Shown here piece after piece: positions 7,427 to 9,470 of a stretch of 10,242 nucleotides of DNA (position 1 is its first letter; the number at the start of each line of letters is the position of its first letter). Under the pieces are notes generated by a model that was not told where the DNA came from, searched no databases, and saw nothing but the letters and a program-made list of their open reading frames with translations. Position numbers and translations under genes: made by a program. Source of the stretch: an uncultured Dysosmobacter sp. (GTDB lineage Bacteria > Bacillota > Clostridia > Oscillospirales > Oscillospiraceae); assembly GCA_934636905.1 (NCBI GenBank), contig CAKUBJ010000043.1, positions 1 to 10,242 of the forward strand, read 5' to 3'.

Positions 7427-7657
7427 ATGACGGAAACGGAGCGGGACATTGCGCTGGCACTGCTGAAGCGGCTGCGGCAGCGGCAGCTGATTCCGGAGGA
7501 AACCTACCTTGCCGCCGCGGCCTCCGGCTGTTTTGACCGGCAGCGTTTTACGCCGGACGCCGGCACCGGCAGAGAAACCGTCACGGAGGAGGTGGAGAGG
7601 AATGACAGGAATCCCGTGGCTCCGGGAGCGGCTCCGACAGGGAATGACCGTCTATGA
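7427..7657 (+). CDS. Small SHOCT-like protein overlapping the recombinase gene
   Basis: The predicted 76-residue protein begins with a helix of the type found in SHOCT-like domains (ALALLKRLRQRQLIPEETYLAA, in part around residues 8-29: hydrophobic helix, turn at Ile-Pro, Glu-Glu-x-Tyr). Small proteins of this look often sit directly upstream of serine recombinases in Clostridia mobile elements (general recollection). The ATG at 7427 is preferred over 7421 because AGGGGGA ends at 7420, giving a 6-nt spacer. The last 56 bp overlap the recombinase start, so translation is probably coupled. After about residue 48 the sequence is low in order and may be a non-conserved tail. It could be an accessory or directionality factor, but that is not shown. 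Confidence 0.6.
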   Translation: MTETERDIALALLKRLRQRQLIPEETYLAAAASGCFDRQRFTPDAGTGRETVTEEVERNDRNPVAPGAAPTGNDRL

Positions 7658-9228
7658 TCTGCCCCTGCGGGTGACCTTTTACGCCCGGGTTTCCACGGAA
7701 AAGACGGAACAGCAGGGCAGTCTGGAAAACCAGATTCAATACTACACGGAGTTGATTGAAAAAAATCCCCGGTGGACATACATCCCCGGCTATGTGGACG
7801 AGGGCATCTCCGGCACCAGCACCCGGGGGCGGGAGCGGTTCCTGCGCATGATTGCGGACGCTCGGCAGGGGCGGTTTGACCTGATTATCACCAAGGAGAT
7901 TTCCCGGTTTTCCCGGAATACGCTGGACAGTATCCAATATACGCAGGAACTGCTGGACTGCGGCGTGGCCGTCCTGTTCCAGAACGACAACATCAACACC
8001 CTGGACGGCGACAGCGAGTTCCGGCTGGTGGTGATGGCCGGCATGGCGCAGGATGAGGTGCGCAAGCTGTCTGAACGGCTGAAGTTCGGGTTCCGGCAGT
8101 CCATCAAGAACGGTCATGTTTTGGGAAATAATCGCTTGTGGGGCTATGACAAAAAGGACTGCCGGCTCACTGTCCTCCCGGAGCAGGCGGAGACGGTGCG
8201 GCTGATTTTCCAATTGTACGCCACCGGGGAATACGGCCTGCGGAAGCTGGCACAGGAGCTGACCCGCCGGGGGTACAGAAGCCTGGGGGGAAACGCATTC
8301 AATCCCACCACCGTGGGCCATATTCTGCAGAATCCCAAATACAAGGGCTGGTACTGCGGAAACAAAACCCGGTCACAGGATTACCGGAAAAAGAAGACGC
8401 TGTTTCTGGAGGAAAGCCAGTGGGTGACCTATCCAGACCCCAACATTCCCGCCATTGTCTCCGAAGAACTGTGGAACCGGGCCAACGCCCTGTTCAAAGA
8501 GCGCAGTGCCCGCACAAAAACCGCCGGCGCAGGGTATCGGAGCCGGTATCCCTACAGCGGGAAAATCATCTGCGGAATCCACGGCACCGCCTTCCATCGC
8601 CAGAGTTTCCGGACGCTGGAGGGACAGACGGAGTACTGGCAGTGCCGGAGATACCGGGAACACGGGAAGGAGGGCTGCGGCCTGCCCAACATCCGGACAG
8701 AGGAGTTGGACGCGGTTCTGACGGTGCAATTCCAAAAGCTGGTGAAAAATCAGCGGCAGATTGTCCGGCTGGTGCTGGACAGCGTTGCGGAAGCCCAGCG
8801 GCGGAGGGACTGTGCCGGCGAACTGGCTCGTATGCAGTCCCAACTCCGGCAGCTGGAGGACAAAAAGGAGCGGCTGCTGGAACTGTGTACCGCCGGTGCC
8901 GTTGCCGTGCAGGAGTTCAAGGAGCGGAACGACGGGCTCAATGACCGGATTGCCGCACTGCGGCGGCAGATGGAAGCCCTGCATCAGCGGGAGCGGGAAA
9001 CGGAAAGCCCGGATGTGCCGCTTTCCCGGCTGGAGGAAGCCCTGAGGCAGGAACTGGACGCGGAACACGGCCTTTCATCGGAGGTGGCGGCATCCATCCT
9101 TGACCACGCGGTTGTCTGCCAAGGCAGCAGCAGGGAAACCATCCGGCTGGAGCTGCATCTCAGGCTGGGGCAGACTGCCTCCGCCGTTTTTTCGCGGAAC
9201 AAATCTGCCTTTTGGAATCCATCTTCTT
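7427..9228. mobile_element. Right part of a skin-like sigK-intervening element (left end not in window)
   Basis: The recombinase unit abuts the point where the sigK reading frame loses similarity (about 9217-9228), which defines the right boundary. The listed left limit is only the smallest supported extent. No sigK 3' half is found on the - strand in the remaining 9.2 kb, so an intact element in direct orientation must extend beyond position 1. Whether the metabolic genes at 215-7137 are inside it, or the locus has been rearranged, cannot be decided here. Confidence 0.7.
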
Positions 9229-9266
9229 TACGATGTGAGCCACCAGACGCAGATTGTGCTGAATAA
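7602..9266 (+). CDS. Large serine recombinase, SpoIVCA-type (sigK element)
   Basis: The 554-residue site-specific recombinase has an N-terminal resolvase domain with catalytic Ser31 in YARVSTEK (27-34), conserved Arg102/Arg105 in ISRFSRN, and the FRLVVMAGMAQDE helix (140-152). A recombinase domain follows (about 175-300), then a zinc-ribbon-like module with Cys324, His327, Cys348 and Cys359, and a coiled coil (about 396-465). It cuts and rejoins DNA through a 5'-phosphoserine link at att sites. The start at 7602 is set by GGAGGAGG (7585-7592) with a 9-nt spacer; upstream in-frame codons encode a Pro/Arg-rich shadow of the small ORF. The gene end runs antisense into a truncated sigK, so the last roughly 12-15 codons lie in host sigK DNA. 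Position against split sigK argues that this is the enzyme that excises the element in the mother cell, as SpoIVCA does in Bacillus subtilis. Confidence 0.93.
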   Translation: MTGIPWLRERLRQGMTVYDLPLRVTFYARVSTEKTEQQGSLENQIQYYTELIEKNPRWTYIPGYVDEGISGTSTRGRERFLRMIADARQGRFDLIITKEISRFSRNTLDSIQYTQELLDCGVAVLFQNDNINTLDGDSEFRLVVMAGMAQDEVRKLSERLKFGFRQSIKNGHVLGNNRLWGYDKKDCRLTVLPEQAETVRLIFQLYATGEYGLRKLAQELTRRGYRSLGGNAFNPTTVGHILQNPKYKGWYCGNKTRSQDYRKKKTLFLEESQWVTYPDPNIPAIVSEELWNRANALFKERSARTKTAGAGYRSRYPYSGKIICGIHGTAFHRQSFRTLEGQTEYWQCRRYREHGKEGCGLPNIRTEELDAVLTVQFQKLVKNQRQIVRLVLDSVAEAQRRRDCAGELARMQSQLRQLEDKKERLLELCTAGAVAVQEFKERNDGLNDRIAALRRQMEALHQRERETESPDVPLSRLEEALRQELDAEHGLSSEVAASILDHAVVCQGSSRETIRLELHLRLGQTASAVFSRNKSAFWNPSSLRCEPPDADCAE

Positions 9267-9420
9267 GCAGATTCCGCGCATCGGAGTCCCCCTGCGCCAT
9301 CCGGCTCAGGCAGTCCCGCTCCTCTGCGGCGGACAGGGGGCGGGGGAACGACCCACCCCGTTCCAGCCGCAGGGACAGCAGCAGTGTGTTGGCAAACAGT
9401 ATCAGCGCAGCAGAAATCAT
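9160..9420 (-). CDS. sigK: Pro-sigma-K, N-terminal half, interrupted
   Basis: The reading frame is 86 residues, but only the first 66 look like sigma-K. The N-terminus is a hydrophobic pro-sequence (about residues 1-19), then the hallmark FPRPLS (25-30), EE..CLSRMAQGDSDARN (33-50) and LLIQHNLRLVAHIVKK (51-66), which leads into sigma region 2. Intact sigma-K would continue with a stretch of the type DDLISIGTIGLIKA; here it becomes an unrelated basic tail and stops at 9160. The ATG at 9420 has AGGAGG (9434-9429) 8 nt upstream; an upstream GTG at 9429 overlaps that site and is less likely. Sigma-K directs late mother-cell transcription (spore coat, cortex, lysis). The pro-sequence implies activation by SpoIVFB-type intramembrane proteolysis. 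The gene is non-functional unless rejoined to its 3' half, which is outside the window. Sigma regions 2.2-4 are missing here. Confidence 0.88.
   Translation of the reverse strand: MISAALILFANTLLLSLRLERGGSFPRPLSAAEERDCLSRMAQGDSDARNLLIQHNLRLVAHIVKKMDSKRQICSAKKRRRQSAPA
9215..9231. other. Putative recombination junction (att core) in sigK
   Basis: Similarity to sigma-K ends at the Lys-Lys codons (9228-9223 on the - strand). The crossover core of the recombinase should therefore lie in or next to this short stretch, around atcttctttac (9221-9231). The partner copy at the sigK 3' half is not in the window, so the exact core cannot be defined by comparing ends. Confidence 0.55.
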
Positions 9421-9470
9421 AAGCGACACCTCCTGTTCACCTCTATGAAACAGGGGGAAGTCCCTATGCC

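Follow-up and report, generated by a model that had tools for sequence, protein, structure and literature searches.

The closest described counterparts of the locus analyzed here are elements that interrupt sigK in Bacillus and Clostridioides. The skin element of Bacillus subtilis is prophage-like. Its recombinase gene, spoIVCA, lies beside the 5′ part of sigK, and a small upstream gene, skr, overlaps it by 101 nt and encodes a directionality factor of 64 residues (PMC6957869). The skin break is of the type found at nt 423 of sigK with the sequence AATGA, whereas another insertion, at nt 195, is reported to be without phage genes (PMC10745906). This is the position of island IV in Bacillus cereus biovar anthracis, whose recombinase also lies beside the 5′ part of sigK and which is excised during sporulation (PMC10745906). 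The skinCd element of Clostridioides difficile encodes a large serine recombinase and a small directionality factor (CD1231, CD1234) (PMC5025042, PMC3789829), and prophages in sigK have been reported (PMC13141910, PMC5553647). Several elements in a single gene are known from the heterocyst genes of cyanobacteria, where 10 of 87 interrupted genes are affected in this way and one nifD carries four elements (PMC4874684). In our literature search, we recognized no paper on sigK elements of the Oscillospiraceae or on a sigK gene with more than one element.

We analyzed a stretch of 10,242 nucleotides from an uncultured Dysosmobacter sp. (hereafter the window), for which the original prediction was a sigK gene split in the layout known from B. 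subtilis and C. difficile. This proved correct for the recombinase, which as in skin lies beside the 5′ part of sigK and is overlapped from upstream by a small ORF that can be likened to Skr by position only. The prediction requires amendment in three respects: the break falls at codon 65 rather than at nt 423, the window showed no phage gene, and three different break sites occur in the family. Island IV is similar to the window in its non-phage content, in the placement of its recombinase, and in its break at nt 195, whose equation with codon 65 (site 1 below) rests on numbering; it differs in coming from another class of the phylum and in its restriction-modification cargo. In contrast, the recombinase of skinCd lies beside the 3′ part of sigK, and C. 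difficile sigma-K lacks the pro-sequence that the sigK piece in the window possesses. The cyanobacterial genes resemble the sigK genes of the window's relatives in holding several elements each, but they represent another phylum, other genes, and another cell type, and the window shows one break only.

Results

An intact recombinase gene lies beside the 5′ part of sigK in the window

The features at the break are as follows.

9223..9420, − strand: 5′ piece of sigK, 66 codons with pro-sequence (SigK models)
9201..9249, − strand: attL-like junction near codon 65 (placed by comparison, limits approximate)
9440..9447, − strand: CATA box, 27 bases upstream of the sigK start (sequence, by eye)
7602..9266, + strand: large serine recombinase, 554 aa (ORF list and domain matches)
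7427..7657, + strand: small ORF, 76 aa, or 78 aa from 7421 (ORF list and position)
7399..7406, + strand: CATA box, 28 bases before the ATG at 7427, with a second one 48 bases before that ATG (sequence)

The sigK coding sequence is broken in the window and its 5′ part is intact. As predicted, the frame from 9420 to 9223 (− strand) reads as pro-sigma-K for 66 codons up to HNLRLVAHIVKK and continues with unrelated codons as far as its stop; similarity to sigK ceases after HIVKK. Two SigK models are the best match for the 66-residue piece (62.4 and 61.1 bits), compared with 35.7 bits for the best SigE model. A search for four further sigK motifs in all six frames of the window found none, and the 3′ half is therefore absent from it. 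The junction was placed by aligning 11 N-side and 9 C-side loci by eye; only one junction end is present in the window, whereas both ends are visible in relatives. The −10 box of sigma-E promoters starts with CATA, and we take the box at 9440..9447 to be a candidate of this kind. On the far side of the sigK start, a gene for a CopZ-like heavy-metal-associated small protein (9646–9927) is divergent from the sigK piece.

The recombinase frame is intact (coding sequence 7602–9263, stop 9264–9266), and its Resolvase, Recombinase, and Zn-ribbon domains each score above the Pfam cut-off. Its 3′ end is convergent with the sigK piece, as had been claimed, although the two genes do not merely meet: the recombinase runs in antisense over the final 44 bases of the sigK piece. 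The predicted span of the whole arrangement, 7427–9435, was about right.

A second recombinase is known that is 98% identical to that of the window (12 substitutions, no stop), as a protein without genomic context. The closest recombinase in genome contigs is 74% identical and comes from Oscillibacter sp. MSJ-31 (locus L010 in genome G009, the nearest relative); the best match is likewise 74% identical among 300 family genomes and among the 18 genomes of the genus. Matches at E ≤ 1e-90 occur in 60 of the 300 family genomes, and 29 of these 60 are more than 50% identical. Between the window and G009, change is mostly synonymous both in the recombinase (pS 0.687, pN 0.159) and in the sigK piece (pS 0.649, pN 0.227), these values being a rough measure with synonymous sites near saturation.

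A small ORF and a CATA box precede the recombinase

The small ORF overlaps the start of the recombinase by 56 bases, and by its position we regard it as a candidate recombination directionality factor. Searches with Pfam, PHROG, and SigK-type profiles returned no family hit for it. A small ORF that directly precedes the recombinase and runs into its start is present at 28 of 32 non-redundant site-1 recombinase loci, in one relative frame at 24 of them and in the other at 4, with some starts uncertain. Direct similarity to the small ORF of the window is clear only in close relatives, so elsewhere the claim is one of position and size.

A CATA sequence lies in the bin 181–200 bases before the recombinase in 24 of the 32 loci, and each of the other 29 bins holds 0–7. 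Note that these counts do not amount to a probability because the loci are related. The CATA box of the window, at −203 from the recombinase, falls just outside the peak bin.

Metabolic genes lie beyond the cassette

The remaining genes of the window were assigned by domain matches.

5251..6789, − strand: lactate permease, on the element side of the recombinase
4248..5198, − strand: lactate/malate dehydrogenase
3155..4216, − strand: class IV aminotransferase
1341..3033, + strand: ABC transporter genes (permease 1341–2255, ATPase 2248–3033)

None of the ten window proteins searched is a phage protein, and the neighbors of sigK and the recombinase are metabolic genes. An 84% identical lactate permease is encoded elsewhere in G009, where its operon does not adjoin sigK, and the window genes beyond the cassette correspond to two separate chromosomal blocks in G009 and G169. 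This chromosomal character of the neighboring operons counts against the skin-type reading. The sigK start of G169 (contig C45, locus L146) is preceded, at a distance of about 290 bases, by the end of the lactate permease block, unlike in the window, where the block (3148–7105) lies beyond the recombinase. G169 is without a close copy of the recombinase, and its sigK is broken at sites 2 and 3 (see below). Two histories would fit the window: capture of the permease block as cargo, or inversion of the sigK piece together with its cassette.

Flank synteny was tried for placing the element edge and given up. DNA matches ended at sigK in the compared pairs, apart from one recombinase match, and neighboring proteins were rarely common to relatives.

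Nine relatives' elements of 5.0–11.2 kb were read by eye, and no phage structural gene was recognized in these nine; larger elements also occur, such as the 39 kb one of G175. In G306 the cargo includes restriction-modification-like genes, in G097 a hydroxylamine-reductase-like protein, and in G008 a transporter ATPase and regulators, while G085 carries an integrase-like ORF and G010 a transposase-like one.

The two chromosomal blocks, together with the missing 3′ part, would fit a dead remnant in which rearrangement removed the 3′ part and left the sigK fragment and cassette beside ordinary chromosome. We consider this unlikely because both frames are intact with mostly synonymous change, the 98% identical recombinase is also free of stops, and ordinary-looking genes are likewise found in the small elements of relatives.

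Relatives share the layout and hold the missing part of sigK

A scan of genome contigs with the recombinase as query yielded 24 loci. In eight of them (L001, L002, L004, L008, L009, L010, L011, and L019), an N-terminal sigK piece is convergent at the recombinase end, and all eight are broken in sigK at the same place as the window. The recombinase adjoins the next sigK piece instead in L005, L006, and L007. An N-terminal piece was not seen in the remaining loci, several of which are short contigs or weaker relatives.

In nine of the 13 genomes that were examined (G175, G306, G085, G197, G247, G252, G160, G217, and G127), the two ends of the site-1 break share a contig and a strand and lie in direct order; the contigs concerned measure 3.67 Mb in G175 and 3.16 Mb in G306. 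The ends are on different contigs in G213 and also in G048 and G261, where the breaks are at site 2; the C-terminal end was not found in G104. When the pieces were joined as protein, a full-length sigma-K resulted, in frame, in 8 of 12 genomes (G175, G306, G085, G127, G009, G001, G147, and G121), whereas the joined products of G106, G040, G093, and G169 end at site 3. On the SigK model NF004471 (cut-off 252 bits), joined proteins scored 291.0 (G009), 280.8 (G175), and 256.5 (G127), compared with 280.4 for the intact sigma-K of G015. The joined protein of G106, which ends at site 3, scored 249.4 and is below both SigK cut-offs. The stricter cut-off of TIGR02846 (298.65 bits) was reached by no joined protein, which counts against the reading, but neither was it by intact G015 (284.6). 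The claim of a skin-type split is thus strengthened by homologous loci in which the 3′ part lies downstream on the same strand and joins in frame, the window itself holding the 5′ part.

We also surveyed 150 genomes of the family, sampled evenly from a larger group, with profiles for the N- and C-terminal ends of sigK. The survey found 122 N ends and 120 C ends, with both in 116 genomes, the N end only in six, and the C end only in four. The ends are contiguous in 92 of the 116 scorable genomes, and sigK is broken between them in 24. Thirteen of these breaks have their ends on different contigs, some of which may reflect assembly gaps; the other 11 are on one contig, all on the same strand and in direct order, with 5.4–55 kb from N start to C start. 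The C match halts at the site-3 position (profile 103–107) in 18 genomes, 14 of which are otherwise contiguous.

A different order was observed in G004 (contig C8; loci L063 and L082), where the 3′ piece at 45297 precedes the 5′ piece at 111977, both on the + strand and about 66 kb apart. This permuted order may be a misassembly. The parts read between the two pieces look like core chromosome, as named by eye.

These observations bear on how sigK would be rebuilt. That an inversion or another rearrangement, rather than excision, restores the gene is in our view very unlikely. Under such a scheme the sigK piece and cassette are turned, and the 3′ part would therefore be to the right on the + strand. 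The permease block upstream of sigK in G169 and the order of pieces in G004 are compatible with this, but the 11 same-contig breaks of the survey speak for direct order without exception, the permease operon is not beside sigK in G009, and cargo capture accounts for the window equally well. It is also quite improbable that the DNA between the sigK parts is ordinary chromosome, with sigK rebuilt through inversion in the window species or through a large circle, the latter being what the permuted order of G004 would require.

The sigK genes of the family are broken at three sites

Comparison of sequences places the breaks in sigK of this Oscillospiraceae family at three sites, each with its own recombinase clade. 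Site 1 is at codons 65–66, and site 2 falls at the ENE codons around 112, with AAATG common to both sides. At site 3, near codon 213, the gene stops two or three codons after RSYVSR or a similar sequence, and most genomes compared are alike in the DNA past this point. Site-3 loci are L068, L065, L079, L080, L093, L099, L103, L128, and L147. With a strict pattern, the tail was located in four of the nine genomes that have a site-3 break and in the unbroken control G175. Because five of the nine tails, including that of G106, were not located, a natural truncated end is possible there. In G093, G003, and G040, though not in G197, a recombinase immediately precedes the tail.

Some genes are in three pieces. 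In G093, whose sigK is broken at sites 2 and 3, one contig of 4,308,696 bases carries the N part at 1133687, followed on the + strand by the C part at 1144953 and the tail at 1167017. Breaks at sites 1 and 2 leave G127 with three pieces on a 75.6 kb contig, and G001 and G009 have three on separate contigs. The sigK gene of G106, with three pieces on one contig, ends at site 3; with a tail, which was not found, it would be in four pieces.

A tree of 37 recombinases separates the three sites into groups of 20, 15, and 2 rows, each of which is split off by a branch with support 100/99. The site of two rows was assigned by hand, only two rows represent site 3, and some site-2 branches are long. 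Among the site-1 rows, the tree shows six changes in the orientation of the element, and well-supported branches force three of these. A palindromic crossover core was entertained as the reason for both orientations and dropped because the junctions, by eye, center on AA.

The occurrence of either orientation, together with the resemblance of the recombinase to phage integrases (PHROG 95, 6.9e-114), would suit an active mobile element for which sigK is a landing site and which is under no developmental control. This we judge highly improbable: only one viral contig carries a match (44% identical), the best phage record is 40% identical, and no match of at least 60% identity was found among phage and plasmid records. 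The lack of phage genes in the window and the conserved cassette with its CATA box argue in the same direction.

Discussion

We assign a probability of about 0.78 to the reading that the sigK gene whose 5′ end lies in the window is split by a skin-like element and rebuilt by excision in the mother cell. Its skin-type character is well supported by comparison. Because the 3′ half is not in the window, we infer excision in this species, and its timing, from the relatives, as we do a 3′ part elsewhere in the genome, the role of the small ORF, and control by sigma-E. In the proposed mechanism, a mother-cell promoter would drive the putative excision-factor ORF and then the recombinase. The two proteins would recombine the junction at codon 65 with a partner upstream of the missing 3′ part, joining sigK in frame and releasing the intervening DNA. 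Excision confined to the mother cell would make sigma-K appear late.

A skin element in clostridia has been called an exception (PMC5025042). In the one gut family sampled here, 24 of 116 scorable sigK genes are broken between their ends and 14 more end at site 3. What is new is the three-site, multi-piece sigK of the family, of which the window is one member. Predictions of sporulation from gene content could overlook such split genes. Provided that excision occurs as proposed, the making of a single sigma factor would take two or three recombinations in some species, and why sigK keeps gaining such locks becomes a testable question.
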